From NCBI RefSeq assembly GCF_014174305.1, contig NZ_JABEQH010000003.1, positions 62,001 to 126,000 of the forward strand: a stretch of 64,000 bases of DNA. Direction: 5' to 3'. Position numbers and translations under genes: made by a program. The notes beneath the pieces are model-generated. The model was not told the origin of the DNA. It did no database searches and saw only the letters and a list, made by a program, of their open reading frames with translations. Below, in pieces: positions 7,248 through 29,423 of this stretch. Positions within the stretch are counted from its first letter, which is position 1. Each line of letters begins with the position of its first letter. This DNA comes from Gluconacetobacter johannae (GTDB taxonomy: Bacteria > Pseudomonadota > Alphaproteobacteria > Acetobacterales > Acetobacteraceae).

Positions 7248-7413
7248 GATGTCTTTGTAACGGGATGTTGCGTTCATCGAACGTTGATAGGAAGAAAAAT
7301 AACGATTGGAAAACGAGTTATGAAAAAATGCACGATGAGAATGTGGAATGTATCGACGCCCGTGCTGGCCGCCCGATCGCGCACTCAGGGGACGGCTGGG
7401 TCTCGCGTGGCGA

Positions 7414-9179: not shown

Positions 9180-10246
9180 GCGCTGAACAGGTCCTGCGTG
9201 ACGCGCGCGGCGTAGCGGGCGGTGTCGAACGACGGGCGGAACACGCCGATGTCCTTCAGGGCGCGGGCGTAGAGCGCGATCTCGTCGCGGAACGTTCCGC
9301 CCCGCGTCTGGTGGTGGTGGCCCTGGATGCGGATCATGGTGGCGATGTCCTCCGCCGAGGCCTTGGGTGCGTAGGGCTTGAAGATATGGCCGGCTTCGTC
9401 CGGATTGCAGGCCAGCCACGCGCCGGCGTCGAGGATGGCGCGTGTGACCGCGATGGCGACCTGCGGCTCGTCACGGATCAGGCTGCCACGCAGGCCGATC
9501 ACGCAGCAGGCGATATGCGCCCAGTCGCCATGCATGTTGCTGTCGATCTCGACCAGGCCGAACTGGCGTTTCTGGAGATAGCTGAACGGATCGCCATCCG
9601 TGATCGCCTGCACGTCGCCACGTTGCAGGGCGACGGGCAGCAGGTCGGGGGGATATTGCCGCCACTGCACGTCAGTTTCGGGGTCGATGCCGATTTCCTT
9701 GAGGCGAATCCCGAAGAAGTTCCGGTCGGGGCCGCCGATATCGGTGACGCCCACCGTCTTGCCGCGCAGGTCGGACAGGTGCGTGATGGCGCCTTTGGGC
9801 GGGGCGAGCAGGTACATGCAGCCCGCGTGGAGGCCCGCGACCAGCTTCACGTCGAACCCCTGCTGCAGCGGCTTGAGCCAGCGCAGCGCCATGCCGGGGG
9901 CGCCGTCGGCCTTGCCGGTCGACAGCGCTTCGAGCAACTGGTCGGTGGCGCCGGCGAAATTCACGTAGTCGATGTCGAGATTATGCCGCGCGAAGAAACC
10001 CTTTGCCTTCGCCACCGGTACCGCCGCGGTGCAGACCGCAGTTTCGTTCCAGGCGATGGTGAGCTTGCGCGGCGGGCCGGGCAGCGGCGTGATGGCGCCG
10101 GTTGCCGCACCCGTGCACTGCGTCTCGCTGTCCATGCCGGCCATGCCGTCGGCCGCACCGGCGCGCCGCGCGCCGATGAAGGGCAGGGCGAGGCTTGCGG
10201 TGGCGGCAAGCGCCGCGCGGCGGGAAAGACGGCGGGATTCGGACAT
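9176..10246 (-). CDS. NMT1/TauA-type substrate-binding protein
   Basis: This is the periplasmic binding protein of the importer formed with the permease at 8184 and the ATPase at 7414. The chosen ATG at 10246 (MSESRRLSRRAALAAT) gives a twin-arginine signal sequence. The mature protein contains LTIAWNETAVC at its first strand and GKTVGVTDIGG in the hinge region. It is more distant from SsuA than the other binding proteins in the window and carries unusual features: a cysteine-containing N-terminus and a short histidine run (GHHHQT). Substrate is unknown; sulfonate or sulfate ester is inferred from neighbours that encode a flavin reductase and a peroxiredoxin. Confidence 0.85.
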   Translation of the reverse strand: MSESRRLSRRAALAATASLALPFIGARRAGAADGMAGMDSETQCTGAATGAITPLPGPPRKLTIAWNETAVCTAAVPVAKAKGFFARHNLDIDYVNFAGATDQLLEALSTGKADGAPGMALRWLKPLQQGFDVKLVAGLHAGCMYLLAPPKGAITHLSDLRGKTVGVTDIGGPDRNFFGIRLKEIGIDPETDVQWRQYPPDLLPVALQRGDVQAITDGDPFSYLQKRQFGLVEIDSNMHGDWAHIACCVIGLRGSLIRDEPQVAIAVTRAILDAGAWLACNPDEAGHIFKPYAPKASAEDIATMIRIQGHHHQTRGGTFRDEIALYARALKDIGVFRPSFDTARYAARVTQDLFSA

Positions 10247-10250
10247 GGTG

Positions 10251-10802
10251 CTACCCTGCGTGGATATGGCTGGGCCCCGGACCGGCCGGAAGCTGGTGAA
10301 AGCGGCGGTCGAACCACGCCAGCCCGGCCCCGCCCGCAGGGTGGATGCGGATGGACTGGACCGCGCAGAACAGCACGTCGTGGCTGCCGGCGGCGTGGAG
10401 GGCGCCGATGGTGCAATCGAGCGTGGCCAGCGCATCGTCGAACAGGGGCGCGCCGGTCACGTCCGTGCGCCATGTGCCGGCCGCGAATTTTTCGTCGGTG
10501 CTGCGCCGGCTGCTGGCGAAACCGGTCGCGAGGTCTTCATGGCTGCCCGACAGAAGGCTGATGCCCAGCACGCCGTTGCCGAGAAAGGCCGCGTGCGAGC
10601 GGTTGGTCCGGTTGAGGCAGACCAGCACCGTCGGCGGCGCGTCACTGACGCTGGTGACGGCGGAGGCCGTCAGCCCGTGACGTCCCGCAGCCCCATCGGT
10701 CGTGACCAGCGTGACGGGCGCGCCAAGCCGGCTCATCGCGTCGCGGAACAATTCGGTCGTGACCTGCGCGGACCGCAGCTCCAGCAGGGCGTCAGGCGGC
10801 AT
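10251..10802 (-). CDS. Flavin reductase (NAD(P)H:FMN oxidoreductase)
   Basis: This is a flavin reductase of the HpaC/flavin-reductase-like fold, which supplies reduced FMN to two-component monooxygenases. Signatures are GAPVTLVTT and HGLTASAVTSVSDAPPTVLVCLN, the classic FMN-binding core of the family, then FDDALATLDC. The ATG at 10802 overlaps the end of the peroxiredoxin-like gene by 11 bases. It is the only recognisable flavin reductase of this fold near the four luciferase-like monooxygenases, so it is the likely partner (SsuE role, different fold) for the SsuD-like and NtaA-like enzymes of this island. Confidence 0.9.
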   Translation of the reverse strand: MPPDALLELRSAQVTTELFRDAMSRLGAPVTLVTTDGAAGRHGLTASAVTSVSDAPPTVLVCLNRTNRSHAAFLGNGVLGISLLSGSHEDLATGFASSRRSTDEKFAAGTWRTDVTGAPLFDDALATLDCTIGALHAAGSHDVLFCAVQSIRIHPAGGAGLAWFDRRFHQLPAGPGPSHIHAG

Positions 10803-11496
10803 GGTGTCGTTCCTTGGCCGACGGGCTGAGATCGAGCGCGGCCAGGATGGCGGGGGTTTCCGTCCGGTCCATCCAGTCGGGTGAGATATCGGCAAAACGC
10901 ACGACGCGGCCTGGGCCGATCACGATGACGGACGGCTTGGGCAATTCCCACGACGCGGTGCCGTTCAAGGCCTCGCTGGTCCCGCCCTTCGCCTCGGCGG
11001 CGTGGCGCGAGGGCGTGTCGAAGACATAGGTCAGTCCGAGTGCGCGCGACAGCGCCAGGCCGGTGTCGGACAGGACGGGGAACGGCAGGTCATGCCGCGT
11101 CGCGATGTCGCCCAAGGCCCCGATGGGCTGTGGCGAGATGGCGACCAGCGGGATTCGCGCATCCTTCAGCGCAGGCCACAAGGTATCCCGATAGTACGGC
11201 AGCGCGATGTTGCAGGCCGGACAGGTCGCGAAGCGGAAGAAGACCAGCACGGCGGGGCCGTTCGCGACAAGTGCGTCGAGTGCCACGGGCTGTCCGTCGA
11301 TGCGCGTGAGCGTGGCCGCGGGCAGCACGTCCCCGATGCCGACATGCGGCTGGTCGCCATGCTCGCGCACCAGCCGCGCGCGCTGGTTGGCGTTGATGGC
11401 CAGGGCATCCGGAGCCCACGAGCGCCTGCGTTCGTCTTCCACTGCCTGAAAGCGCGCGCGCAGGGATGGGCCGGTGACGTTCTGTTCTGTACTCAT
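10792..11496 (-). CDS. AhpC/TSA-family peroxiredoxin-like protein
   Basis: This is a thioredoxin-fold protein of the AhpC/TSA type, 234 residues. The active-site region reads FATCPACN, so a CxxC pair sits where the peroxidatic cysteine is expected. It has the extended N-terminal helix region seen in peroxiredoxin-like proteins that occur with flavin-dependent enzymes. It may detoxify H2O2 from uncoupled FMNH2 oxidation, or handle sulfur redox chemistry; this is inference from its place as first gene of a flavin reductase-ABC transporter operon. A GGGGA sequence precedes the ATG. Confidence 0.82.
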   Translation of the reverse strand: MSTEQNVTGPSLRARFQAVEDERRRSWAPDALAINANQRARLVREHGDQPHVGIGDVLPAATLTRIDGQPVALDALVANGPAVLVFFRFATCPACNIALPYYRDTLWPALKDARIPLVAISPQPIGALGDIATRHDLPFPVLSDTGLALSRALGLTYVFDTPSRHAAEAKGGTSEALNGTASWELPKPSVIVIGPGRVVRFADISPDWMDRTETPAILAALDLSPSAKERHHAA

Positions 11497-11591
11497 GCTG
11501 GGGCATCCCCGAAAAGGTCGAGGCTTCGACTATGGAGGAGAAGTCCCTGTTTCGACCAAGGAGTTTCGCTCAAGGGTCACCTTGGCGCGCC

Positions 11592-12485
11592 TCATTGACC
11601 ATCGGCGGCCTGCGCCAGAAGATCGCCCAGATCCTGCGCGACATCCGACAGCCCGTTGCGCCGCACCAGGATCGTTTCGATTTCCGGCACGGTGGGGAGG
11701 GCGCCCTGGGCGATGATCGGCAGGCCTTCCGCCACGGCGAAGCGCCGCGTGCGGCAACTGACGCCAAGCCCGCCCCGGACCCCCGCGCGCATGGCGGGCA
11801 GGTTCGGCGTTTCCAGCACGATGCGGTATTCGCGCCGGTCCTGGGCCAGCACCCGCAGGGCGGCGTCGCGAAAGCGGCAGGGCGGTTCGAGAAGAACGAG
11901 AGGCACTTCACTGCGTTCGGTGTTCGCCGGATCGCCCAGCCAGGCCATCCGGTCGGCGCCCACGACGTTCCACGTCGCATCGGCCCTGTCGCCGTGCTGG
12001 CCCAGGCAGAGGACCAGGTCGAGACGCGCGCGGTCGAACATGTCGAGCAGTTCGGCCGAGCCGCCGACGCGAACGATCAGCCGCGCACGCGGATGTTCGA
12101 GCCTGAAGCGCCCGAGCACATCGGGCAGAATCGTGTCCGCGAAGTCCTGGACCATGCCGACGGTGATGGGGTCGTGATCCTGGTCCTGGCCCAGATTCTG
12201 GACGATCCGGTCATTCAGGGCGAGCAGTTGCCGGGCGTAGGCGACCAGTTCCTCGCCCGCCGCGCTCAGAAGCAGTCGTCGGCCGTCGCGGCGGAACAGT
12301 TTCTGCTGCAGCACGTCTTCCAGCCGCTTCATCTGCAGGCTGAGGGCCGACTGCGTGAGGAAGATCGTTTCCGTGGCCTGCGCCATGGATCCGGCCTCGA
12401 CGATCGCCACGAAGGAACGCAGCAGTTCCGTCGGCACGTTCCGGGCCATTCTCTGCGGGAGGCCAGGCGAGAGCGAGTGTGACAC
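11592..12485 (-). CDS. LysR-family transcriptional regulator
   Basis: This LysR-type regulator has 297 residues. The N-terminal winged helix-turn-helix (about residues 17-75) contains LLRSFVAIVEAGSMAQATE and LTQSALSLQMKRLED, both standard for the family. The C-terminal half is the effector-binding domain. It is transcribed away from the SsuD-like operon at 12642 and lies directly upstream of the peroxiredoxin/transport operon, an arrangement in which LysR proteins usually control the divergent operon. The effector could be a sulfur metabolite, as for CysB/Cbl, but that is inference. Confidence 0.92.
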   Translation of the reverse strand: MSHSLSPGLPQRMARNVPTELLRSFVAIVEAGSMAQATETIFLTQSALSLQMKRLEDVLQQKLFRRDGRRLLLSAAGEELVAYARQLLALNDRIVQNLGQDQDHDPITVGMVQDFADTILPDVLGRFRLEHPRARLIVRVGGSAELLDMFDRARLDLVLCLGQHGDRADATWNVVGADRMAWLGDPANTERSEVPLVLLEPPCRFRDAALRVLAQDRREYRIVLETPNLPAMRAGVRGGLGVSCRTRRFAVAEGLPIIAQGALPTVPEIETILVRRNGLSDVAQDLGDLLAQAADGQ

Positions 12486-12528
12486 GACGGCAGGCTCCGG
12501 ACCGATGAGGACTGCAAAAGTCCATATT

Positions 12529-12545
12529 AACGAACGTAAATCGTT
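12529..12545. promoter_or_regulatory. Candidate operator, AACGA-N7-TCGTT (copy 1)
   Basis: A 17-base dyad AACGA-N7-TCGTT lies 44 bases upstream of the lysR start, in the divergent promoter region. An identical half-site arrangement recurs 73 bases away, close to seven helical turns. The pair is a good candidate for regulator binding with DNA looping or cooperative contact. Confidence 0.5.
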
Positions 12546-12601
12546 ATATGATTATTTTTGTCTTGTTCTTCCCTGACGCGCAAGTGTTAAATATGATGAT
12601 A

Positions 12602-12618
12602 AACGATAACGTATCGTT
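12602..12618. promoter_or_regulatory. Candidate operator, AACGA-N7-TCGTT (copy 2)
   Basis: This is the second AACGA-N7-TCGTT dyad; here the arms extend to AACGAT/ATCGTT around a five-base centre. It lies just upstream of the ribosome-binding site (GGAGG at 12630-12634) of the SsuD-like gene, so occupancy would be expected to affect that operon directly. Confidence 0.5.
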
Positions 12619-12641
12619 GAATATGTATCGGAGGATAAGGG

Positions 12642-13733
12642 ATGTCCATGGAATTCATCGGCTTTATCGGCAGCCGCAACCAGTCCGAGACCATTCCGCC
12701 ATCCGGCCCGGTCATCGACCTCGGCCATATCGAGGCGTCCGCGAAGATCCACGAGAACGGCGGATTCGACCGGACGCTGATCGCCTTTCATTCGAATTCG
12801 CCCGAAAGCATCCTGCTGGCCCAGCACGCGGCGTCGGTGACGCGCGATCTCGGCCTGCTGATCGCCCATCGGCCGGGCTTCAACGCGCCCACCATCGCGG
12901 CGCGCCAGTTCGCGACGCTCGATCATCTCACGCGCGGGCGTGTGGCCGTGCACATCATCACCGGTGGGGACGACGTCGAGCTTCAGGCCGACGGCGATCA
13001 TACCACCAAGGCCGAGCGCTATGTGCGGACGAGCGAGTATCTGGACATAGTGCGGAACGAATGGACCAGCCCGGCGCCCTTCGATTACGCGGAACGGTTC
13101 TATGACGTCCGGGGCGCCCATTCGCTGGTCCATCCCTACCGCGAGGCCGGGATTCCGGTCTATTTCGGCGGTTCGTCCGAGGACGCCATCGCCGTGGCGG
13201 GCAAGCATGCCGATGTCTACGCGTTGTGGGGCGAAACCTACGAGCAGGTGAGCGAGACGGTGGCGCGGGTGCGCGCGGCCGCCGCGCGGCATGGCCGCAC
13301 GCCGCGCTTCTCGCTTTCGCTCCGTCCGATCCTGGCCGATACCGAGGGCGCGGCCTGGGCGAAGGCCGACAGCATCCTGGAGACCGCCCGTGCGTTGCAG
13401 GACAGGACCGGCTTCGCCCGCCCCGCCAACATCCCGAACGAGGGATCGCGCCGCCTGCTGGCCGCGGCCGACAGGGGGGCGCGGCTGGACAAGCGGCTGT
13501 GGACGGGCATCGCGGCGCTGACAGGCGCGCGGGGCAATTCGACCTCGCTGGTCGGCACGCCGGACCAGGTGGCGGAGGCCCTGCTGGATTATTACCGGCT
13601 GGGCATCACCACCTTCCTGATCCGCGGCTTCGACCCGCTGCTCGACGCCTATACCTATGGCCGTGACCTGATCCCCCGCGTGCGCGCCCTGGTGGCGGCC
13701 GAAGAGGCCCGTGCGCGGACCGAGGCGGCCTGA
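12642..13733 (+). CDS. SsuD-like FMNH2-dependent alkanesulfonate monooxygenase (copy 1)
   Basis: This is a luciferase-like monooxygenase of the SsuD group, which cleaves the C-S bond of alkanesulfonates to give sulfite and an aldehyde. Matching segments include AHRPGFNAPTIAARQFATLD, the HIITGGDD block, and YFGGSSEDAI, all aligning with E. coli SsuD motifs from memory. It is 363 residues long, close to SsuD. GGAGG seven bases ahead decides the ATG at 12642. It starts a tight operon (dehydrogenase, aldolase-like, thiol dioxygenase, rhodanese) that ends with a second SsuD-like paralogue. The real substrate may be a different sulfonate or sulfone. Confidence 0.9.
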   Translation: MSMEFIGFIGSRNQSETIPPSGPVIDLGHIEASAKIHENGGFDRTLIAFHSNSPESILLAQHAASVTRDLGLLIAHRPGFNAPTIAARQFATLDHLTRGRVAVHIITGGDDVELQADGDHTTKAERYVRTSEYLDIVRNEWTSPAPFDYAERFYDVRGAHSLVHPYREAGIPVYFGGSSEDAIAVAGKHADVYALWGETYEQVSETVARVRAAAARHGRTPRFSLSLRPILADTEGAAWAKADSILETARALQDRTGFARPANIPNEGSRRLLAAADRGARLDKRLWTGIAALTGARGNSTSLVGTPDQVAEALLDYYRLGITTFLIRGFDPLLDAYTYGRDLIPRVRALVAAEEARARTEAA

Positions 13734-13754
13734 GCGCGGAGGCGGTTGGACATC

Positions 13755-14729
13755 ATGCGCCCGCTTGTCGTCGTCAATCAGCTTGGGGCCGGGCTGCATC
13801 CCGCGCTGGCCCCGTTCGGTGACCGCGTCCGCGTCATTGATGGGGACCGCGAGGGCGATGTGCCCTGGGACGTGGACGGCGCCGATATTCTGCTGACCGG
13901 CCCGTCGCGCAGCTGGCAGGCCGCGCCCGACCGTCGGCCGGCGGAATGGGGGGCGGGGCCATGCTGGGTGCAGATCGCCTCGGCCGGTGTGGACGGATTT
14001 CCGGCATGGCTGCTGCAGGGGCGCGCCGTGACGTGCGGGCGCGGCGACGCGGCCGTGCCGATCGCGGAATATGTGCTCGGGGCGCTGCTGCTGCATGAAA
14101 AGCGGCTGGATACGGTGCGCCCCGACGGCCCCGCGGCCTGGTTGCGGGAAGCGGCGGCGTTGAAGCGCGGATCGCCGCTGGGTGGGCTGGCGGGGCGTGT
14201 CGTCGGGCTGGCGGGGTATGGCGCGATCGGCCAGGCGGTCGCGGCGCGGGCGCGGGCGTTCGGCATGCGTGTGCTGGCGTGGCGGCGCGGCGCGTGGACC
14301 GGGACCGAGCAGGATGTCGAGCCGGTCGCGCGCCTGGCGGAACTGATCGAACAGGTCGACCATCTGGTTCTGGCGCTGCCGCTGACGCGCGAAACCGAAG
14401 GCTGCGTGAATGCCGGTCTGCTGGCCCGTGCGAAGCCGGGCCTGCATCTGGTCAACGTCGCGCGGGGGCCGTTGGTGGACCAGGACGCGCTGGTTGCAGC
14501 GCTCGACTCCGGGCGGGTCGGTTTTGCGACACTCGACGTGACCAGCCCCGAACCGCTGCCGGCGGGGCATCCGTTCTATACGCATCCGGCCATCCGCCTG
14601 ACGCCGCACGTGTCATGGTCCGGGCCTGCCGTCGGGCAGAATCTGCGCCGGCGGATCACGGCGAATCTCGAGCGTTTCCTGGAGGGGCGTCCGCTGCAGG
14701 ACGTGGTGGATGCCGCACGCGGCTACTGA
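13755..14729 (+). CDS. D-isomer-specific 2-hydroxyacid dehydrogenase
   Basis: This is an NAD(P)-dependent 2-hydroxyacid dehydrogenase of the glyoxylate/hydroxypyruvate reductase type. The Rossmann motif is GLAGYGAIG. The catalytic triad is complete: arginine in NVARGPLVD, glutamate in SPEPLPAGHP and histidine in TPHVSW. The ATG at 13755 is preferred, with GGAGG twelve bases upstream; a TTG at 13746 would add three residues. It follows the SsuD-like gene by 21 bases. It may reduce or oxidise a 2-keto/2-hydroxy acid released from a sulfonated substrate such as a sulfolactate-like compound, which is inference. Confidence 0.9.
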   Translation: MRPLVVVNQLGAGLHPALAPFGDRVRVIDGDREGDVPWDVDGADILLTGPSRSWQAAPDRRPAEWGAGPCWVQIASAGVDGFPAWLLQGRAVTCGRGDAAVPIAEYVLGALLLHEKRLDTVRPDGPAAWLREAAALKRGSPLGGLAGRVVGLAGYGAIGQAVAARARAFGMRVLAWRRGAWTGTEQDVEPVARLAELIEQVDHLVLALPLTRETEGCVNAGLLARAKPGLHLVNVARGPLVDQDALVAALDSGRVGFATLDVTSPEPLPAGHPFYTHPAIRLTPHVSWSGPAVGQNLRRRITANLERFLEGRPLQDVVDAARGY

Positions 14730-14753
14730 TTTGAAAAAAGGAGGACCATCAGC

Positions 14754-15563
14754 ATGAACGCCATTACGCCGCCCGCTGCTCCGGCACAGGATTCGGCACA
14801 GGCGCGGGAGCGCCGTCTGGCGCCCCGCCCGCCGGCCGCATCGTTCGAGGAGGAGCGGCTGCATCGCAAGCAGCGCCTCGCCGCGACGTTCCGGCTGTTC
14901 GCGCGCTATGGGTTCGACCAGGGGCTGGCCGGGCACGTCACCGTGCGCGATCCGGAATTTCCCGACCGGTACTGGATCAATCCCCTGGCCGTCCATTTCT
15001 CGCAGATCAGGGTTTCCGATCTGCAACTGGTCACGCATGGCGGCACGATCCTGGTCGGGGACCGGCCGATCAACACGGCGGGCTTCACGATCCATTCGGC
15101 CCTGCACCGGGCGCGGCCCGATGTCATTGCCGCGGCCCACACCCATTCGACCTACGGCAAGGCGTTCTCGGCGCTGGGTACCGAACTGCTGCCGATCACG
15201 CAGGATTCATGCGCCTTCTACGAGGATCATGCGGTCTTCGACCCGTTCAGCGGCGTCGTGCTGGATGACAGCGAGGGAGAGCGGCTGGCGGCGGCGCTGG
15301 GCCAGCGCAAGGCGGCGATCCTTCAGAATCATGGGCTGCTGACGGTGGGGCCGACGATCGAGGCGGCCGCGTGGTGGTTCATCACCATGGATAACGCGGC
15401 CCACGCCCAGCTTCTGGCGCAGGCGGCCGGTCCGCTGAAACCGATCGCACCCGATGTCGCGCGCCTGACCGCAAGCCAGGTCGGCACCCATCAGGGCGGC
15501 TATTTCTCGTTCCAGCCGCTGTGGGACTGGATCGTGGCCCAGGAACCCGATCTTCTGGATTGA
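14754..15563 (+). CDS. Class II aldolase/adducin-family protein (copy 1)
   Basis: This is a protein of the class II aldolase/adducin fold, a zinc-dependent family. The metal ligands are present: two histidines in AAAHTHSTYG and a third in QNHGLL. The catalytic glutamate found in fuculose-phosphate aldolase is absent; the equivalent place reads NTAGFTIH. It has 269 residues with a proline/alanine-rich N-terminal tail of about 35 residues. A ribosome site AGGAGG sits just before the ATG. It lies between the 2-hydroxyacid dehydrogenase and the thiol dioxygenase. Two further family members occur in this window, also next to sulfur-type genes. Confidence 0.88.
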   Translation: MNAITPPAAPAQDSAQARERRLAPRPPAASFEEERLHRKQRLAATFRLFARYGFDQGLAGHVTVRDPEFPDRYWINPLAVHFSQIRVSDLQLVTHGGTILVGDRPINTAGFTIHSALHRARPDVIAAAHTHSTYGKAFSALGTELLPITQDSCAFYEDHAVFDPFSGVVLDDSEGERLAAALGQRKAAILQNHGLLTVGPTIEAAAWWFITMDNAAHAQLLAQAAGPLKPIAPDVARLTASQVGTHQGGYFSFQPLWDWIVAQEPDLLD

Positions 15564-15568
15564 ATGAC

Positions 15569-16168
15569 ATGACATCCATCGCACCGCTTCGGGATTTCGT
15601 CGCCCGCTTCACCAGATTGTACGAACGCGGGCTGGCGCCCGATGCCGTCCAGCGGGAAGGGGCCGTGCTGCTGCGCGACCTCGTCTCGCGCGATGGCTGG
15701 CTGCCCGAGCCCTTCACCCGCCCGAATCCGGAACGGTATAGCCAGTATCTGCTGCATTGCGATCCGCTGGAACGGTTCTCGGTCGTCAGCTTCGTCTGGG
15801 GGCCGGGACAGAAAACGCCGCTGCACGACCATCGCGTCTGGGGTCTGATCGGCATGCTGCGCGGGCGCGAGAGCGAAACGCAGTTCGCACGCGGCGCGGA
15901 CGGAAAATTTCACGCCGGAGAGACAAGTTTTCTGGAACCCGGCGAAGTGGTGGCCCTGGCCCCCGGCGTGAACGACTATCATCTGGTCGCCAACGCACTG
16001 GCCGACGAAACCTCGATTTCGATCCATGTCTACGGCGACAATATCGGCGGCGTCTCGCGCGCCACCTACGATCCGGACACGGGGGCCGAGAAATCGTTCA
16101 TTTCCGGCTATTCCAGCGCGGACGTGCCGAATCTCTGGGACCGCTCGAAGCGGGCGGAGGCGGCATGA
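15569..16168 (+). CDS. Thiol dioxygenase, Gln-type (probable 3-mercaptopropionate dioxygenase)
   Basis: This is a mononuclear non-haem iron cupin of the cysteine dioxygenase family, which converts a thiol to a sulfinate with O2. Iron ligands H86, H88 (PLHDHRVW) and H138 (NDYHLV) are present, with the second-shell H153 and Y155 (SIHVYG). The position matching Arg60 of mammalian cysteine dioxygenase, which holds the cysteine carboxylate, is Q59 (RYSQYLL). In the characterised family this glutamine marks 3-mercaptopropionate dioxygenases. The cysteine of the Cys-Tyr crosslink is missing (L93), as is normal in bacteria. It overlaps the rhodanese gene as ATGA. Confidence 0.88.
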   Translation: MTSIAPLRDFVARFTRLYERGLAPDAVQREGAVLLRDLVSRDGWLPEPFTRPNPERYSQYLLHCDPLERFSVVSFVWGPGQKTPLHDHRVWGLIGMLRGRESETQFARGADGKFHAGETSFLEPGEVVALAPGVNDYHLVANALADETSISIHVYGDNIGGVSRATYDPDTGAEKSFISGYSSADVPNLWDRSKRAEAA

Positions 16169-17772
16169 ACGCCGTCACGGCACGGCCCGTCACCGTCACC
16201 TCGCCGCACGAGGTGCGGCGCCTGCTGCGGGCGGGGGACGAGATCGCGCTGCTGGACCTGCGCGAGGAAGGGCCGTTCGCGGCGGCCCATCCGCTGTTTG
16301 CGGTCAACCTGCCCCTGGGGCGAATCGAGGAGCGGATCGGCGTCCTGGTGCCGCGCCGCGATGCGCCGATCGTGCTCTATGACAACGGCGAGGGCCGGGT
16401 GGCGCGTGCGCTGCCGGTCTTCGCGGCACTCGGCTACGGCAATGTCAGCATGCTGGAAGGCGGGCTTGCCGGCTGGCGGGCGTCGGGCGGTGAAATCTTC
16501 ATCGACGTGAACGTGCCGTCGAAGGCTTTCGGCGAACTGGTCGAGCATGTCCGGCATACGCCCTCGCTGCCCGCGCCGGAACTCCAGGCCCGGATCGCGC
16601 GCGGCGACGACCTGGTGATTCTCGATGCGCGGCGCTTCAGCGAATATCATGTCATGTCCATTCCCGGCGGCCGGTCGGTGCCGGGCGGGGAACTGGCGTT
16701 GCGGGTGCGCGACATCGCGCCCTCGCCCGAGACGGTCGTGGTGGTGAACTGCGCCGGCCGAACCCGTTCGATCATCGGCGCGCAGTCGCTGGTCAATGCC
16801 GGCATCCCCAACCCCGTCTTCGCGCTCCGCAACGGGACCATCGGCTGGACGCTGGCCGGCCTGGAACTTGACCATGGCGCGGCGCGGACGGGGGGCGAAC
16901 CCACCGGCGCGAATGTGGCGCGCGCCCGTGCGGCGGCGGCCGCGCTGGCGGAGCGGACCGGGGTGCGGGCGATCGGGCAGGGGGCGCTGTCGGCGCTCCA
17001 GTCCGACCCGGCCCGGACGGTCTATCGCCTCGATGTGCGGTCGCCCGAGGACTATGCGGCGTCGCATCTCGAAGGGTTTCGCTCGGCGCCGGGTGGCCAA
17101 CTCGTGCAGGCGACCGACGAGTGGATCGGCGTGCGTCACGGCACGATCGTGCTGACCGACGACGATGGCGTCCGCGCCCGCATGACCGGCCACTGGCTGC
17201 GGCAGTTGGGCTGGCGCGAGGTCTATGTGCTGGACGACTGGGCGGGCGCGCCACGCGCGACCGGCGCCGAGCCTGTGGTGCTGGCCGCGCCCTTGCCGGA
17301 GGTGGACGGCGTGTCCGTCGCCGCCCTGGTCGCGGAACGCGCGGCGGGGGAGGGCCCGCTGGTGATCGACCTTGCCGCCAGCCCGGCCTTCCGCACGGGG
17401 CATGTGCCGGGTGCGGTGTTCGCCATCCGCCCCGATCTGGCCGGGCATCCGCGCCTGGCGGACGCGCGGGACGTCGTGCTGACCTCGCCCGACGGGGTCG
17501 CCGCGCGTCTGGCCGCGCCCGAACTGGCGCATGCGGGTTTACGGGTGCGGGTGCTGGACGGGGGCACGACTGCATGGCGGGACGCCGGGCAGCCGCTTGA
17601 AACCGGCCTGGACACGGCGCGCGCGCTCTCGCGTCCGGACGATGTCTACAAGCGCCCCTATGAGGGCACGGATAATGCCGCCGCCGCCATGCAGGCGTAT
17701 CTGGACTGGGAGTTCGGCCTTGTCGCCCAGCTGGAACGCGACGGAACGCACGGGTTTTCCGTGCTGGACTGA
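16165..17772 (+). CDS. Four-domain rhodanese-like sulfurtransferase
   Basis: This 535-residue protein is made of four rhodanese-like domains in tandem, at about residues 10-110, 120-255, 265-385 and 390-485, with a short C-terminal tail. Only the second domain carries a catalytic cysteine, C196 in the loop VNCAGRTRS. The matching loops of domains 1, 3 and 4 read LYDNGEGR, LTDDDGVR and LTSPDGVA and lack cysteine. One active transfer site and three structural or docking domains are therefore expected. The start ATG overlaps the stop of the thiol dioxygenase gene, so the two are translationally coupled, which suggests that the enzyme receives or disposes of sulfur from the same thiol pathway. 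Confidence 0.9.
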   Translation: MNAVTARPVTVTSPHEVRRLLRAGDEIALLDLREEGPFAAAHPLFAVNLPLGRIEERIGVLVPRRDAPIVLYDNGEGRVARALPVFAALGYGNVSMLEGGLAGWRASGGEIFIDVNVPSKAFGELVEHVRHTPSLPAPELQARIARGDDLVILDARRFSEYHVMSIPGGRSVPGGELALRVRDIAPSPETVVVVNCAGRTRSIIGAQSLVNAGIPNPVFALRNGTIGWTLAGLELDHGAARTGGEPTGANVARARAAAAALAERTGVRAIGQGALSALQSDPARTVYRLDVRSPEDYAASHLEGFRSAPGGQLVQATDEWIGVRHGTIVLTDDDGVRARMTGHWLRQLGWREVYVLDDWAGAPRATGAEPVVLAAPLPEVDGVSVAALVAERAAGEGPLVIDLAASPAFRTGHVPGAVFAIRPDLAGHPRLADARDVVLTSPDGVAARLAAPELAHAGLRVRVLDGGTTAWRDAGQPLETGLDTARALSRPDDVYKRPYEGTDNAAAAMQAYLDWEFGLVAQLERDGTHGFSVLD

Positions 17773-17808
17773 TGCGAAGACACGGCTGGGAAAAAGGAAA
17801 ACGGCATC

Positions 17809-18945
17809 ATGCCCATCGAATTCATCGGCTATGTCACAGGTCGTCACCAGAGTGAGACCATCCCGCCCGTCGGGCCGGCCGTCGCCCCCGGCTATATCGC
17901 GACGACCGCCGCGATCCACGAGGACGGCGGGTTCGACCGGGTGCTGGTGGCCTTTCATTCCAATTCGCCCGACAGCCTGCTGATCGCGCACCATGCGGCC
18001 GCCGCGACGCGACGGCTGGGGCTGCTGATCGCCCACCGGCCGGGGTTCGCGGCGCCGACGCTGGCGGCGCGTCAACTGGCGACCCTCGACCAGCTGACGC
18101 GCGGCCGGGTGGCGGTGCACATCATCACGGGCGGCAACGACAGCGAACTGGAAGCGGACGGCGACCACACGACCAAGGGGGTGCGCTACGCGCGGGCCAG
18201 CGAGTATCTGGACGTGCTGCGCCGGGAATGGTCGGCCGATGCCGCCTTCGACCATGACGGGGCATTCTATCGCGTGGCGGGCGCGCGTTCGGACGTCGGG
18301 CCCTATCGGCCGGGCGGAATCCCGATCTATTTCGGCGGCGCCTCGGATGATGCCATCCGGGTGGCCGGCCGGCATGCGGACGCCTATGCCCTGTGGGGCG
18401 AAACCTATGACGAGGTCGCGGCGATGATCGCGCGGGTCAGCGCCGCCGCCGCCGCCAACGGCCGGCCCGCGCCGCGCTTTTCCCTTTCGTTCCGCCCGAT
18501 CGTGGCGGACACCGAGGACGAGGCATGGGCGCGGGCGGGGCAGGTCCGCGCGCGGATCGACGCGTTGCAGCAGGGGACGGGCGTGCAGGCGGGGGCCATT
18601 GCGCTGGATGTGGCCGGCGCGCCGCCGGCGGCCGGGACGCTGCCGACCAACGAAGGGTCGCGTCGCCTGCGTGCCCTTGCGGCGCGCGGCGAGCGCCTGG
18701 ACAAGCGGCTGTGGACCGGCGTGGCGGCGGTGACCGGTGGCCGATGGAACTCGACCGCGCTGGTGGGCGACCCCGACCAGGTGGCGGAGGCCCTGCTGGA
18801 CTACTACCGGCTGGGCGTGACGACGTTCCTGATCCGGGGATTCGACCCGCTGTCCGATGCGCTGGTCTATGGCCGCGACCTCATCCCGCGCGTCCGCGCC
18901 CTGGTGGCGCAGGAGGATGCCAGGCGGGGCGTTGCCGCCGCCTGA
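17809..18945 (+). CDS. SsuD-like FMNH2-dependent monooxygenase (copy 2)
   Basis: This is a paralogue of the gene at 12642, with near-identical blocks such as HRPGF-APT-AARQ, RGRVAVHIITGG and YFGGASDDAI. It is slightly longer (378 residues) because of an insert around QAGAIALDVAGAPPAAGT in the C-terminal third. It closes the operon, 36 bases after the rhodanese gene. Having two diverged copies flanking the pathway genes suggests either two substrates or a heteromeric enzyme. It converges on the acyl-CoA dehydrogenase-like gene across an inverted repeat. Confidence 0.9.
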   Translation: MPIEFIGYVTGRHQSETIPPVGPAVAPGYIATTAAIHEDGGFDRVLVAFHSNSPDSLLIAHHAAAATRRLGLLIAHRPGFAAPTLAARQLATLDQLTRGRVAVHIITGGNDSELEADGDHTTKGVRYARASEYLDVLRREWSADAAFDHDGAFYRVAGARSDVGPYRPGGIPIYFGGASDDAIRVAGRHADAYALWGETYDEVAAMIARVSAAAAANGRPAPRFSLSFRPIVADTEDEAWARAGQVRARIDALQQGTGVQAGAIALDVAGAPPAAGTLPTNEGSRRLRALAARGERLDKRLWTGVAAVTGGRWNSTALVGDPDQVAEALLDYYRLGVTTFLIRGFDPLSDALVYGRDLIPRVRALVAQEDARRGVAAA

Positions 18946-18966
18946 TCCGGGTCCGGGGCCTCGGAG

Positions 18967-19123
18967 CCTGACCGGAAATGTGGGCTGGCGAGCGAGAGCG
19001 GCCCGCGAGGGCCGCGCCCGGCGTGCGTTTTCGAGCACCGAAGCGGAGCGGCCTTGATGGCCGTGAGCATCGGAGCACAGAAAACGCGCGTCGGATCGCC
19101 GCCAGCGCGCATTTCCGGTCAGG
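18967..19123. repeat. Intergenic imperfect inverted repeat
   Basis: CCTGACCGGAAATG at 18967-18980 is the exact reverse complement of CATTTCCGGTCAGG at 19110-19123. The arms continue imperfectly inward: GGCTGGCG, a GTGCGTTTTC-type block and a GCACCGAAGC-type block recur in inverted order over about 75 bases each. The element fills the space between two convergent genes, with no convincing protein in it. It looks like a dispersed palindromic repeat or a remnant of a miniature mobile element. Confidence 0.6.
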
Positions 19124-19146
19124 CCCTGGCGGTTATCCCGCCAGGG
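19124..19146 (-). terminator. Hairpin overlapping a stop codon
   Basis: Perfect nine-base arms CCCTGGCGG and CCGCCAGGG enclose a five-base loop (TTATC). The hairpin spans the TAA of the acyl-CoA dehydrogenase-like gene. No T-run follows on either side, so termination strength is uncertain. Confidence 0.45.
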
Positions 19147-20296
19147 CTGCCTTGCCGGCGAACGCCAGCGCGCTGTCGCCCTGGGGCGTGTGGATGCGCC
19201 CGCACAGCACGTCCCGGTAATGGCGCTCCAGCGGGTTGTCCTGGCTGAGGCCGGGGTTGCCGATCGCCGCGACGGCCTTGCCCACGGCGGCGATCGCGTT
19301 CTCGGTGACGATCTGCTTGACCAGGCCCGCGTCGGCGTTGGCATGCTCGCCGGCTTCCTCGCGCCGCAGCGCATGGTCGATCAGCGCGCTGTTGGTCAGC
19401 AGCAGCGCGTCGATCTCGCCCAGCAGAACGTGGAATCGGGGCAGCGTGGACAGCGCCGCGCCGAGGTTGGACGGGACCCGGGCCTGAAGGAAGCCGATCA
19501 GCCAGGTCCGCGCGGCGCGGGCGATGCCGTCATACAGCGCGCCTACCGCGATCGCGTGCCAGCTTGCCAGCGCCACGGCTTCCTCCTGCGTGCCGTCCGG
19601 CCGGGTCAGATTGACCAGGTAGCGTTCCGGGATCGGGACATCCTCGAAAATGACCGTGTGGCTGCCGGTGGCGCGCATGCCCATCTGGTTCCAGCTCTTT
19701 TCGACCCGGACCCCCGGCAGGTCGAGCGGCACCAGCACCTGGCCGACGCGCGGCGCATCCTCGTCGGTGCGGGACCACACCACGCCCCAGTGCAACGCGG
19801 TCGAGCCGGTCGAGAAGATCTTCCGCCCGTTCAGGCGCCAGATCGCGCCGTCGCGCCGCACGCTGGTCGCGGGCAGGCCGCCGCGCGCGGGGGTGCCCAA
19901 TTCCGGCTCCACGCGCAGGGCGTTCATCAGCGCGCCGTCGCGGACGATGCTGGAAAATACCTCGGCCTTCACCGCGTCGCTCCAGACCGGGGAGCGGGCG
20001 ACCGCGCCCGACTGGAGATATTGCATGGCCAGGATCAGCGCCGTGGACGGGTCGCCCTGCGCGATGCGGCCCACGATCTCGACGATCCGCCGCAACCCGA
20101 TCCCCTGGCCGCCTGAAACGGGCGGGACGGTCAGGGTCAGCAGCCCGGCCTCGCGCAGGTCGGCGAGGTTGTCAAGCGCGATCTCGCCCGAGCGGTCGTA
20201 GCCCGCCGCCCGCCCCGCGAATCGCGCGACCAGGCGATCCAGCGTTTCGGCCGATATATCGACAGGCGCGTGTGCTCCGATCGGTGATCCATCCAT
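19133..20296 (-). CDS. SfnB/DszC-like acyl-CoA dehydrogenase-family flavoprotein
   Basis: This is a flavoprotein with the acyl-CoA dehydrogenase fold (387 residues) of the kind found in sulfur-acquisition clusters (SfnB, DszC). The family's middle-domain segment is visible as NGRKIFSTGS, and WNQMGMRATGSHTVIFEDV corresponds to the block after the beta domain. The ATG at 20296 (MDGSPIGA) is chosen because the upstream extension overlaps the ferredoxin in another frame. It is the last gene of the operon binding protein - AprA-like - ferredoxin - this gene. A monooxygenase or desaturase role on an organosulfur compound is inferred. Confidence 0.85.
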   Translation of the reverse strand: MDGSPIGAHAPVDISAETLDRLVARFAGRAAGYDRSGEIALDNLADLREAGLLTLTVPPVSGGQGIGLRRIVEIVGRIAQGDPSTALILAMQYLQSGAVARSPVWSDAVKAEVFSSIVRDGALMNALRVEPELGTPARGGLPATSVRRDGAIWRLNGRKIFSTGSTALHWGVVWSRTDEDAPRVGQVLVPLDLPGVRVEKSWNQMGMRATGSHTVIFEDVPIPERYLVNLTRPDGTQEEAVALASWHAIAVGALYDGIARAARTWLIGFLQARVPSNLGAALSTLPRFHVLLGEIDALLLTNSALIDHALRREEAGEHANADAGLVKQIVTENAIAAVGKAVAAIGNPGLSQDNPLERHYRDVLCGRIHTPQGDSALAFAGKAALAG

Positions 20297-20321
20297 GACC
20301 GGTGATTCCCCCCAGTGGTCT

Positions 20322-20666
20322 CTATGCGTCCCGTGCGCGACGGAAGACGTCTTCCATACGCCAGTGCTGGTTGCGTAGCGCCTCGTTCCCGGCCCACTCG
20401 TCCCAGCCCGACGCCCGCCGATATTCGCCCAGCAGGCCGGACGCCTCGATGGCCGCCGCGTCCTGCGGCCGGGCGCGGCCCGCGTCAGGATGCACATAGA
20501 GTGCGTCCTCCCGGCAATAGAGTTCGCACAGGAAGCAGGTCTGGCAGTCGGCCTGCCGCGCGATGCGGGGCGGGCCATCGGGCACGGGGTCGAACACGTC
20601 GCGCGGGCAGGCCGTCACGCAGGCGGTGCAGCCTGTGCAGCGTGAGGCGATGACGAGTTCGATCAT
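20322..20666 (-). CDS. 2[4Fe-4S] ferredoxin (AprB-like)
   Basis: This 114-residue ferredoxin has two complete cluster motifs: CTGCTACVTACP at residues 10-21 and CQTCFLCELYC at residues 41-51, each CxxCxxCxxxC. A C-terminal extension of about 60 residues ends in WRMEDVFRRARDA. The ATG overlaps the stop of the flavoprotein gene as ATGA, so the two proteins are very probably subunits of one enzyme, as AprA and AprB are. It probably passes electrons to or from the FAD of its partner. Confidence 0.9.
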   Translation of the reverse strand: MIELVIASRCTGCTACVTACPRDVFDPVPDGPPRIARQADCQTCFLCELYCREDALYVHPDAGRARPQDAAAIEASGLLGEYRRASGWDEWAGNEALRNQHWRMEDVFRRARDA

Positions 20667-22234
20667 GCCTGTTCTCCAGCCGGGACGAGATCCGTCCAGA
20701 TCGTGTCCACGCCGCCGGCAATGACGTGCGCCGGCGGCGTGGTCGCGGCGATGGCGTCCGCGCGCCGGTGCAGGCCCAGGCTGTCGCGGCGCGCCAGCGC
20801 GCTGGCCGTGCTCCACCGGGCGGTGGCGGTCAGGGCGGCAAGCTCCCTGCGACGGGCCCGGGCATGGGGCGTCGGGGCAAGGCCGGCGTGGGGCAGGGCC
20901 GTCCACCCGGCATCCAGACGGTCGCGCGCCGCGGACAGCGTCGCGTCCGTCCGGAAATATTGCTTCATGGGGGACAGCATTTCGGCCTGCACCGCGCGCT
21001 CGATCTCGGCCGCGTCGGTCGTGCCGTGAGGATGCGCCAGGCCCGCGCCGCCCGTGCCGTCGGCCGGCGTGTCCGCGCGCCGGCCATGGCGGCGCACGCG
21101 GGCCAGCGCGGCTTCCGCCGCGATGCAGCCCGAGGACAGGGCCCAGGCCGCATTTACGGCGCCCCCGCCGCTGACGGCCCCGGTGACCGGCTCGCGCGAG
21201 GCGACGTCGCCCGCCACGAACAGCCCCTCCACGCCCGCGCCGGCATCCGCGTCGGCGACGCGCACGCCGCCCACGCCCCGGATCGTACCCTCGCCCACCA
21301 GGCTGACGGGAAAGCGGTCCTGGAACGGGTCGATGCCCAGACGGCGGAAGGCCAGGGTCACGTTGGGGGAAATCTGCGGCAACTGCCGCCGCACGTCCTC
21401 GGGCGTCGCGGAGAGATCGCAGAACACGGGCCCGTGCGTCAGGGCCTCGGCCAGGAACGCATTGTCGTGCGGACCCTGCGGCCGGTCCAGCAGGCGGCCG
21501 TGCTCGTCGTAATAGCGCGCGAAACTGTAGATCATGGTGCGCGCCATCGTCGTGTCGGCCGGGACGACCGTGAAGAAGGCGGAAAATTCCATGCCGGACA
21601 GCACGGCCCCGGCCTCGACCGCCATCAGCAGCCCATCCCCCGTATTGTTGGCCCCGCCGAGCAGGTGCGAGCGAAAGCCGCAGCCGCCGGTGGCCAGGAT
21701 CGTGGCCCCCGCGCGGACCACCCAGTCGCCGCCCGCGCCCTGGCGGCTGACGCCCCGCGCGCCGGCGATGCCGCCATCGGCATGGCGCAGCAGCTCCAGC
21801 GCGGGACTGTGGTCCAGAACGATCGCGCCGGCCGCCAGGGCCTTCTCGCGCAGGGCGCGCAGATATTCCGGCCCGCGCAACGCGTGATGGCGGATCCTGC
21901 CGTCGTCGTCGGGCACATACTGGTAGTGGCTGGCAATGTCCGGCAGCGTGCGGAAGGTCCGGTCGACGATCCGCGCCATCCATGCGGCATCGCCCAGCCC
22001 TTGCGCGGCGGCCAAGCGGCGGGCGATCGCTTCCTCGCGCCGGCCGGGGTCGGGGGGCACCCACCAGTGGCCCGGCCCGGCCGCCGCCGCAACGCCCGAG
22101 GTGCCGCAGCGGCCCTTTTCCGCGACGATCACGCGCGCGCCGCCCTGTGCGGCGGTGATGGCGGCCCAGCACCCCGCCAGGCCGCCGCCGATGACGAGCA
22201 CGTCGGCGTCATGGTGGGTGAGCTGCGTTCTCAT
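20663..22234 (-). CDS. AprA-like / fumarate-reductase-type FAD oxidoreductase
   Basis: This is an FAD protein of the succinate dehydrogenase/fumarate reductase/APS reductase alpha family, 523 residues. The dinucleotide motif is VLVIGGGLAGCWAA, followed by VAEKGRCGTSG. The FAD C-terminal part shows LFVAGDVAS and GAVSGGGAVNAA. The start ATG at 22234 overlaps the stop of the SsuA-like gene. Pairing with a two-cluster ferredoxin resembles dissimilatory APS reductase AprBA, but neighbours are assimilatory, so it may be a reductase or oxidase of an organosulfur intermediate. It is not claimed to be a true APS reductase. Confidence 0.85.
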   Translation of the reverse strand: MRTQLTHHDADVLVIGGGLAGCWAAITAAQGGARVIVAEKGRCGTSGVAAAAGPGHWWVPPDPGRREEAIARRLAAAQGLGDAAWMARIVDRTFRTLPDIASHYQYVPDDDGRIRHHALRGPEYLRALREKALAAGAIVLDHSPALELLRHADGGIAGARGVSRQGAGGDWVVRAGATILATGGCGFRSHLLGGANNTGDGLLMAVEAGAVLSGMEFSAFFTVVPADTTMARTMIYSFARYYDEHGRLLDRPQGPHDNAFLAEALTHGPVFCDLSATPEDVRRQLPQISPNVTLAFRRLGIDPFQDRFPVSLVGEGTIRGVGGVRVADADAGAGVEGLFVAGDVASREPVTGAVSGGGAVNAAWALSSGCIAAEAALARVRRHGRRADTPADGTGGAGLAHPHGTTDAAEIERAVQAEMLSPMKQYFRTDATLSAARDRLDAGWTALPHAGLAPTPHARARRRELAALTATARWSTASALARRDSLGLHRRADAIAATTPPAHVIAGGVDTIWTDLVPAGEQA

Positions 22235-23187
22235 GGCAGGGTGAAGCTCCGGTCGAAGGCGGTTGCGAACGGGCCGGCGGAAGACAGGAGGCCGGCCGAG
22301 CGGTAGGCCTCCAGCGTGACCTGTTCGGCCTTCACGACGGTCTCGCCGACGGCGGCGGGTGTGGCGATCAGCTTCTGCGCGACCGCCTCGGCGACGGTCT
22401 GCGGCAAGCCGGTCTGGCGCGCCAGCAGCGCGGCATACTCCCGCTGGTGCAGGCCGCCCCACGCATAGGCCCTGGCCACGCGGCGATAGAAATCGGCCAG
22501 CTGGGCGTGCTTGCGCGCAAGCGCGGCGTCGGTTGCGACAAAGAAGCTGTTGTTGGGCATGACCCCCGCGCCGTCGGCCAGCACGACCCCGTGGTTCTGG
22601 ATCGTTTCCAGCGAGACATAGGGCTCCCAGGTCGACCAGGCGTCGATGCCGCCGCTGTCGAGCGCCGCCTTGGCCTGGGCCGGGGCGAGGAACACGATGT
22701 GTGGCGCGGGGGCCGGGATCGCGCCGGTCTGGATCAGGCGCAGCAGAAGCAGGTGGCCGATGGAGCCACGGCCGGTCGCCACCCGCTTGCCCGAGAGATC
22801 GGACAGGGTCCTGATCGTCGAGCCGGCCGGCGCGACGACCGCCGTGGCGCGTCCGCCCCCGCGTGGCGGAATCAGGAGGGCGGCCCGGACCGGCAGGCCC
22901 GCGCCCCAGGCAAAGAGAAACGGGCCGTCGCCGGCAATCCCCGTGTCGACCGCCCCGGCCCCCAGCGCCTGCAGAAGGGGGGCGGCGGCCTCGAACTCGG
23001 TCCAGCGGATGCGGTAGGGCAGCCCCTGGTCGGCCCCGGCGGCTTCAAGCAGCGCCTTCTGCTGCCCTTTCTGGTCGGCCACCACCAGGTCGTCGTCGGC
23101 CCGTGCACCCGGCGCGGCGTGAAGCAGGCACAGCAGGACGGTGGCGCCCAGGATTCGGCGGGGCAGGAGGCGGGCGGCACGATGCAT
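22231..23187 (-). CDS. SsuA-like sulfonate substrate-binding protein
   Basis: This is a periplasmic binding protein of 318 residues. A signal peptide (RRILGATVLLCLLHAAPGARA) is followed by LVVADQKGQQKALL, the SsuA first strand. The ligand loop AWSTWEPYVS is present. It begins the operon with the AprA-like and ferredoxin genes. The divergently transcribed genes at 23343 and 24200 encode a permease and an ATPase, which complete an SsuABC-type importer. The close match in overall pattern to the protein at 3731 suggests related ligands. Confidence 0.9.
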   Translation of the reverse strand: MHRAARLLPRRILGATVLLCLLHAAPGARADDDLVVADQKGQQKALLEAAGADQGLPYRIRWTEFEAAAPLLQALGAGAVDTGIAGDGPFLFAWGAGLPVRAALLIPPRGGGRATAVVAPAGSTIRTLSDLSGKRVATGRGSIGHLLLLRLIQTGAIPAPAPHIVFLAPAQAKAALDSGGIDAWSTWEPYVSLETIQNHGVVLADGAGVMPNNSFFVATDAALARKHAQLADFYRRVARAYAWGGLHQREYAALLARQTGLPQTVAEAVAQKLIATPAAVGETVVKAEQVTLEAYRSAGLLSSAGPFATAFDRSFTLP

Positions 23188-26842: not shown

Positions 26843-26965
26843 GGCGGCGCTCCGGACGGGGGGTGTCGTCGTTCGACCCGGAGTGTACGGGTGAACTGTC
26901 CCGACCCCGAATGAGAAATCAAAAAGCATCATTCAAAGACGCCTTGATCGTGGCCGGGCAGGCGT

Positions 26966-29131: not shown

Positions 29132-29423
29132 TTTATATCCTTCCGTCCGACATAGAGTATGCGCCGTTCTTCGCAACATTGCAGATGCAAGGACGTCTCT
29201 ATGGCAGGGTTCCGGAAAGTAATATTGAATTGTGTAAAACTTATATGTTTCGTTATCTCATTCCCAATTCCTGGGGTGAGATGAAATAAGAAACCGGAAT
29301 TCGTTTCGGTTGTGACCGATGGCGCCAGCTTTGTTCGTATGCAGGGCGCGCGCAAGGACTGTCACGGGCTGCCTTGCCGGGGCGGGGACGCCGGAAGCCC
29401 TGGCGTCCCTCCCCTTGTGGAAA

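Follow-up and report, generated by a model that had tools for sequence, protein, structure and literature searches.

The window analysed here is a stretch of 64,000 nucleotides from Gluconacetobacter johannae (contig NZ_JABEQH010000003.1, positions 62,001 to 126,000). At positions 12642-18945 it carries six open reading frames (ORFs) on the + strand, which a preliminary description had taken together as one six-gene operon for organosulfur metabolism. We found that the conserved unit consists of the first five genes, LLM1-HADH-ALD-CDO-RHOD, and that LLM2 stands outside it. The six genes are as follows.

12642-13733, + strand: LLM1, a group C luciferase-like monooxygenase (LLM) dependent on reduced flavin mononucleotide (FMNH2), 363 aa (Pfam PF00296 Bac_luciferase)
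13746-14729, + strand: HADH, a D-isomer 2-hydroxyacid dehydrogenase, 327 aa (Pfam PF02826 2-Hacid_dh_C; relatives in the PDB)
14754-15563, + strand: ALD, a class II aldolase-fold protein of the PRK06208 subfamily, 269 aa (Pfam Aldolase_II; NCBIfam NF004855)
15569-16168, + strand: CDO, a Gln-type thiol dioxygenase, probably a 3-mercaptopropionate dioxygenase (3MDO), 199 aa (Pfam CDO_I; PDB matches)
16165-17772, + strand: RHOD, a four-domain rhodanese of the PA2603 (1yt8) type, 535 aa (Pfam Rhodanese, four stretches)
17809-18945, + strand: LLM2, a paralog of LLM1 and a lineage-specific appendage of the operon (Pfam Bac_luciferase)

As described before, the ORFs share one strand and follow each other closely, with successive gaps of 12, 24, 5, -4 and 36 bp. 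A GGAGG-like stretch precedes LLM1, HADH, ALD and RHOD, the start codon of HADH is TTG (an alternative ATG lies at 13755), and all six proteins exceeded the Pfam gathering score. LLM1 and LLM2 are 68% identical. In a quick tree with support from the Shimodaira-Hasegawa-like approximate likelihood ratio test (SH-aLRT) only, LLM2 and other Acetobacteraceae paralogs formed a clade of their own (SH-aLRT 99), whose members in Gluconacetobacter, Gluconobacter and Acetobacter sit elsewhere in their regions. Among the loci examined, the window and Gluconacetobacter azotocaptans were the only two with LLM2 immediately after RHOD; the latter species also gave the nearest LLM1 locus (95%) among the named matches listed. 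A conserved operon of six genes was therefore rejected, although five of the six stood as one unit, and LLM2 is probably a recent addition to it. A third LLM1 paralog (58%), which groups near Caulobacter sequences, was observed at contig positions 60467-61531 (-1534 to -470 relative to the window); the region therefore reaches past the window start.

To survey the spread of the gene set, LLM1 (E<=1e-90), CDO (E<=1e-40) and RHOD were searched for in a single sample of 398 Pseudomonadota genomes, the own genome among them. CDO was detected in 23 genomes, which is a lower bound because CDO fragments found by tblastn in one genome (G455) were missed at 1e-40. RHOD was present in all 23, within 1 kb of CDO in 18 and within 10 kb in 22, and the 39 genomes with RHOD included 16 without CDO. 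LLM1 was found in 24 genomes, 16 of which had CDO (12 within 10 kb) and 22 of which had RHOD (15 within 10 kb); at least 521 places were recorded for the LLM subfamily in another scan. Co-occurrence and clustering of the three marker genes in this sample exceed chance, with the proviso that the genomes are related while the Fisher tests treat them as independent, so the p-values cannot be read literally.

The named LLM1-type loci were counted as well. The best-scoring 79, which are not a random sample and include 20 loci shorter than 20 kb, contained CDO within 10 kb in 43 cases, RHOD in 44, SfnB in 45, CDO with RHOD in 42, and ALD with CDO and RHOD in 21. Among 21 Acetobacteraceae-type named loci, CDO and RHOD were both found in 20, ALD in 18 and HADH in 13 at the threshold used, and the sole locus lacking CDO and RHOD is cut off behind LLM1, where its 5-kb contig ends. 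HADH followed LLM1 immediately in 14 of the 21, one of them (L096) by a partial match. The order LLM1-(HADH)-ALD-CDO-RHOD with short gaps persists throughout the Acetobacteraceae.

Beyond this family, two Caulobacter-type loci share the order HADH-ALD-(binding protein)-CDO-RHOD, and Paraburkholderia sprentiae carries LLM-ALD-CDO-RHOD-binding protein-acyl-CoA dehydrogenase. Azospirillum thermophilum has the row transporter-CDO-RHOD-binding protein-LysR-transporter-LLM-ALD-binding protein-acyl-CoA dehydrogenase. In Sphingobium TomTYG65 the row is sulfonate transporter (permease-SsuB2)-3MDO-sulfurtransferase-LLM-sulfonate binding protein-TauD, the sulfurtransferase of about 425 aa being shorter than RHOD, and on a Comamonadaceae plasmid the gene set adjoins ssuE and ssuD. 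The preliminary description proposed that genes for C-S oxygenation, thiol oxidation and sulfane transfer belong together; this linkage is real and wide, covering Acetobacteraceae, Pseudomonas, Caulobacter, Azospirillum, Sphingobium and Burkholderiales, and the gene set recurs among many soil and plant bacteria. In both Acetobacteraceae and Burkholderiales, where a search for the gene order had been advised, the linkage recurs.

CDO scored 23.9 bits against Pfam CDO_I (cut-off 23), and no NCBIfam model matched it. Its top PDB matches were 6xb9, 4qma, 3uss/4tlf and 4wvz (E 1e-61 or lower), of which 6xb9 is the 3MDO of Azotobacter (Av3MDO), and 4tlf and 4wvz are named 3-mercaptopropionate dioxygenase. 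The iron ligands H86, H88 and H138 correspond to His90, His92 and His142 of Av3MDO, and S151, H153, Y155 and R164 correspond to Ser155-His157-Tyr159 and Arg168 (active-site residues and numbers from PMC8050391, those of Ser155-His157-Tyr159 from PMC10966181). The Gln-type assignment made earlier was confirmed by Q59, the equivalent of Gln63. All eight 3MDO residues were retained in 48 of 48 CDOs from LLM-anchored loci, after 7 shorter sequences of the 55 had been excluded by the coverage filter. Judged by these residues, CDO most likely acts on 3-mercaptopropionate.

RHOD gave a full-length match to 1yt8 (E 3.7e-160), which we take to be PA2603. It had been described as a quad-rhodanese; the four domains are present, but C196, in domain 2, is the only Cys. 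C196 was retained in all 56 aligned sequences (55 of 57 candidates that passed the filter, plus the window), and in domain 4 a Cys occurs in 30 of the 56 and a Ser in the window. The start codon of RHOD overlaps the stop codon of CDO in the window (ATGA, -4 bp) and in 39 of the 48 pairs in which both genes are neighbours on one strand, a count that leaves out locus L085, which is out of frame by its CDO-RHOD distance; Azospirillum thermophilum, with a gap of 14 bp, is an exception. CDO and RHOD are a near-fixed pair.

Two observations concern relatives of RHOD. Three-domain relatives, matching about residues 5-378, were noted in nine large genomes of one genus (g111, family f8), none with CDO at the threshold used. 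On the Caballeronia sp. NK8 plasmid pNK83 (positions 6586-13744 of the locus), a cysteine dioxygenase gene is accompanied by a tandem of two large rhodanese genes, metC, and genes for a homocysteine methyltransferase and a TauE/SafE exporter; this is a different thiol-oxidation cluster drawing on the same rhodanese family.

LLM1 and LLM2 had been called SsuD-like, and this holds for the fold. The AlphaFold model of LLM1 (predicted local distance difference test score 91.6) had MsuD 7k14 as its top Foldseek match (33% identity); the predicted model confirms the SsuD/MsuD fold and nothing beyond the fold. Against the NCBIfam SsuD model TIGR03565, LLM1 and LLM2 scored 213 and 200 bits, less than half of the cut-off of 518, and no SsuD over this curated cut-off was found in the genome. 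Active-site residues were then compared in 117 sequences aligned to E. coli SsuD (115 of 115 candidates, plus LLM1 and LLM2). At the position of SsuD R226, where no gap was required nearby, Ser was found in 117 of 117; H228 was replaced by Arg and Y331 by Phe, each in 116. A signature S226-x-R228-P229 stands in the LLM1 subfamily in place of R226-x-H228 of SsuD. The R297 column contained Thr, Leu, Ile or Val and never Arg (0/117), the alignment being less certain here as the loop differs by 2 residues in length. A shifted alignment of this loop, with R297 of LLM1 nearby, was also tried and did not rescue the site (R in 30/117, otherwise mostly Q, K, S and A). The stacking Trp196 was retained in 115 of 117.

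In MsuD, the variants R225A, R296A and W195A no longer gave measurable sulfite formation (PMC8234197). Because the sulfonate-site residues are replaced across the subfamily, LLM1 and LLM2 are not to be read as alkanesulfonate monooxygenases; the SsuD function was downgraded after this residue test, and the SsuD-type alkanesulfonate chemistry suggested earlier is not supported. The substrate of the module is most likely not a simple alkanesulfonate, and the near-invariant Arg228 may bind another anion in an altered way. It should be pointed out that this subfamily resembles alkanesulfonate monooxygenases and is sometimes annotated so, as in the Sphingobium case, yet lacks the known sulfonate site.

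HADH bears out its earlier naming as a 2-hydroxyacid dehydrogenase by exceeding the gathering score of 2-Hacid_dh_C, and its R240, E269 and H288 match what we take to be the usual catalytic triad of D-2-hydroxyacid dehydrogenases. ALD scored 430 bits against NF004855 (cut-off 255). It was aligned to E. coli FucA together with its subfamily (29 of 29 candidates plus the window), and three His, which in FucA are presumably the metal ligands (H129, H131 and H193 in the window), were retained in 30 of 30. The position of FucA Glu73, presumably the catalytic residue, was occupied by Gly in 20 sequences and by Ala in the other 10, with Gly110 in the window. The earlier term aldolase-like is right for the class II fold, but a true class II aldolase was rejected with the replacement of this Glu. 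The solved structure nearest by sequence is NovR (9ryg), which has Ala at that position, and ALD shows the NovR/CloR-type combination of a three-His metal site with the aldolase Glu lost, a likeness by sequence. NovR and CloR, non-heme iron enzymes with a 3-His site, carry out two oxidative decarboxylations, first of a 2-oxo acid and next of the 2-hydroxy acid so formed (PMC13111500).

The surroundings of the operon contain the following features.

2389-3714, - strand: NtaA/DmoA-family LLM in the outer part of the region (TIGR03860, 472 bits, cut-off 279.7)
3731-4984, - strand: SsuA-family binding protein in the outer part of the region (TIGR01728, 193.5 bits, cut-off 163.5)
7414-8190, - strand: ABC transporter ATPase (Pfam)
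8184-9179, - strand: permease of the same ABC transporter (Pfam)
9176-10246, - strand: NMT1/SsuA-like binding protein of the same transporter (Pfam; SsuA_fam match below the cut-off)
10251-10736, - strand: flavin reductase-like protein of the RutF/HpaC type (Pfam PF01613; NCBIfam RutF E 2e-49, below the cut-off)
10792-11496, - strand: AhpC/TSA-like redoxin (Pfam)
11592-12485, - strand: LysR-family regulator, divergent from LLM1 (Pfam HTH_1 and LysR_substrate)
12562-12584, no strand: CTTG-N15-CAAG dyad, a candidate operator in the LysR-LLM1 intergenic region
19133-20296, - strand: SfnB-like flavoprotein of the acyl-CoA-dehydrogenase fold (best NCBIfam TIGR04022 (SfnB), E 6e-33, below the cut-off)
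20322-20666, - strand: AsfB-like ferredoxin with eight Cys (Pfam Fer4)
20663-22234, - strand: AsfA-like FAD-binding reductase (Pfam FAD_binding_2)
22231-23187, - strand: SsuA-family binding protein (TIGR01728, 170 bits, cut-off 163.5)
23343-24203, + strand: permease (Pfam)
ending at 24946 (24269-24946 scanned), + strand: ATPase (Pfam)

In 18 of the 21 Acetobacteraceae-type named loci, a LysR relative lies no more than 10 kb from LLM1. The dyad is the sole match in the window, where about one is expected by chance per 64 kb, and it recurred in 11 of 14 aligned LysR-LLM1 intergenic regions, window included. The flavin reductase is a candidate FMNH2 donor for LLM1 and LLM2. PDB matches of the SfnB-like protein were mixed, comprising dehydrogenases as well as DszC/methanesulfinate monooxygenase, and do not settle whether it is an oxygenase or a dehydrogenase. 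The names AsfA and AsfB are presumed from the domain layout.

Several TonB-dependent receptors were observed as well. One (26966-29179, - strand) adjoins a second class II aldolase-fold gene (26048-26932, - strand), and two others (19-2334 and 4677-7466) lie on either side of the oxygenase genes; these receptors perhaps serve outer-membrane uptake of organosulfur compounds. Elsewhere, the Azospirillum thermophilum plasmid carries a type II CRISPR-Cas locus beside its organosulfur genes (16426-20968 of locus L197), with cas9 annotated as two overlapping coding sequences.

On balance, we consider it probable, though far from assured, that the five-gene unit is a LysR-controlled module taking sulfur from small organosulfur acids under sulfate scarcity. 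The neighbourhood, which is of the organosulfur-uptake type with SsuA-family binding proteins exceeding the curated cut-off, speaks for it. Gene content, conserved linkage and active-site residues were observed directly, as were genes of the PAPS-reductase family (PAPS_reduct) and the sulfite/nitrite-reductase family (NIR_SIR) elsewhere in the genome; for control by LysR and by sulfur starvation, the substrates, the order of steps and the role of RHOD, we infer the following scheme. ABC importers would bring organosulfur compounds into the cell, and the FMNH2-dependent LLM, supplied by the divergently encoded flavin reductase, would cleave a C-S bond, possibly once the SfnB-like protein has oxygenated the sulfur. 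HADH and ALD could shorten the carbon chain via a 2-hydroxy/2-oxo acid. The resulting mercapto acid, most likely 3-mercaptopropionate, would be oxidised by CDO to a sulfinate, giving sulfite. RHOD, translated together with CDO, may transfer sulfane sulfur by persulfide/thiosulfate/sulfite exchange via its domain-2 Cys, and sulfite would enter the ordinary reduction pathway to feed cysteine synthesis.

A number of points weigh against this scheme. Solitary CDOs nearly always retain the 3MDO residues too, and the signature is therefore not special to the operon. A CDO-like match at 1e-5 was found in 68 of 150 genomes of the family survey, and RHOD and LLM1 stood beside CDO in only 5 of 35 regions, of which 11 were shorter than 19 kb and several were stopped by contig ends; of the remaining 30 regions, 6 were sampled for neighbours, and the 10 proteins scanned included no rhodanese or LLM. 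SfnB without CDO was seen in 23 of the 79 best-scoring LLM loci. Some Acetobacteraceae lack HADH (L032, L102, L106) or ALD (L102, L112). Azospirillum TSH58 has RHOD with TauD in a stretch with no annotated CDO, and Paracoccus denitrificans has LLM with an acyl-CoA dehydrogenase and a transporter in a stretch with no CDO or rhodanese. No 3-sulfinopropionyl-CoA desulfinase over the cut-off was detected in the genome (best 269.7 bits, cut-off 600), and the sulfinate-to-sulfite step therefore has no assigned enzyme. Deletion of the rhodanese gene (tst) in P. protegens caused no significant change in 3-mercaptopropionic acid (PMC12947264).

Since CDO, LLM and RHOD are each also found without the others nearby, they may be separate desulfurising tools for different substrates, joined by a common sulfur-starvation switch and not by a serial pathway. 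This main rival explanation is possible but, in our view, tentative. Gene sets do mix and match among lineages, several paralogous LLMs, binding proteins and TonB receptors lie within one region, and CDO is frequently solitary in Acetobacteraceae. However, the stable LLM1-(HADH)-ALD-CDO-RHOD order with its short gaps throughout that family speaks for a joint pathway, and so do the LLM-ALD-CDO-RHOD set shared by Paraburkholderia and the HADH-ALD-(binding protein)-CDO-RHOD order of the Caulobacter-type loci L170 and L172.

Plain alkanesulfonate scavenging, with LLM1 and LLM2 as ordinary SsuD/MsuD enzymes and the other genes as accessories, is unlikely. The MsuD fold, the retained Trp196 and the SsuA-family binding proteins alongside are what it would predict, but R226 is Ser in every sequence, the R297 column is never Arg, the corresponding MsuD variants R225A and R296A gave no measurable sulfite (PMC8234197), and the SsuD scores fall far short of the cut-off. 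Use of 3-mercaptopropionate or thiodipropionate as a carbon source, by the mdo-act-acdA route of Variovorax/Advenella, would agree with the full 3MDO residue set of the dioxygenase, but with no AcdA-type desulfinase over the cut-off in the genome, none among the six genes, and transporters and neighbours of the sulfur-acquisition type, it is highly improbable.

A bolder reading than the sulfur-acquisition module, which we regard as rather improbable, makes the operon a complete aerobic route that both forms and consumes 3-mercaptopropionate from methionine-type acids. HADH would oxidise 2-hydroxy-4-methylthiobutyrate to its 2-oxo acid, the NovR-like ALD would oxidatively decarboxylate this to 3-methylthiopropionate, the altered LLM would demethylate the thioether to 3-mercaptopropionate with release of formaldehyde, and CDO would take the product to the sulfinate and then sulfite. 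Each enzyme type, as predicted from its residues and family, fits one step of this route. A 3mdo mutant of P. protegens accumulates 3-mercaptopropionate, for which dimethylsulfoniopropionate, methionine and homocysteine have been suggested as sources, and the same study states that the enzymes forming it are unreported (PMC12947264). Against the bolder reading, group C monooxygenases screened in Acinetobacter showed no detectable oxidation of dimethyl sulfide (PMC13352529), a result that weighs against thioether substrates for group C enzymes in general, with DmoA, also of group C, as the known exception that does cleave it (PMC8234197). If true, this reading would identify enzymes that form 3-mercaptopropionate and assign the LLM subfamily to thioethers instead of sulfonates. 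A conserved operon in which a thiol dioxygenase is joined by a flavin oxygenase and two enzymes for carbon trimming offers concrete genes for testing.

Compared with known systems, the CDO-RHOD pair and the ssu, asf and sfn systems are already known. The preliminary description had regarded the whole pathway as unfamiliar, which holds for the five-gene unit but not for the pair (PMC12947264); for the unit, no description was found in the Creative Commons-licensed literature searched, judged mostly by titles and abstracts, and one may exist elsewhere. With SsuD/MsuD, LLM1 and LLM2 share the fold, several flavin-site residues, W196 and the two-component type, whereas both sulfonate-binding Arg as well as His228 and Tyr331 are replaced throughout the subfamily. 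asfRABC of Pseudomonas putida S-313 with ssu has a reductase, ferredoxin, binding protein, LysR regulator and FMNH2 oxygenases in common with the region, and the available part of its account has no mention of 3MDO, rhodanese, HADH or ALD (PMC4267179); the Asf names here follow domain layout only. The mdo-act-acdA cluster of Variovorax paradoxus TBEA6, as far as the available text describes it, also contains a 3-mercaptopropionate dioxygenase, whereas the six genes here lack the CoA transferase and desulfinase, and uptake and oxygenase genes are found instead (PMC6370202). For 4-mercaptobutyrate in Rhodococcus erythropolis MI2, an LLM and rhodaneses were proposed in separate clusters, with no thiol dioxygenase in the pathway as given in the accessible part of the source (PMC5157978). 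Another close likeness is to the Pseudomonas 3mdo-tst pair (PA2602-PA2603; P. protegens c14110-c14100), which has the same two families in the same order as CDO-RHOD and is apparently one transcription unit (PMC12947264). The 3MDO active site is kept here and RHOD is closely related to 1yt8, but in the window LLM, HADH and ALD genes join the pair to make an operon of five, and a divergent LysR gene lies next to it.

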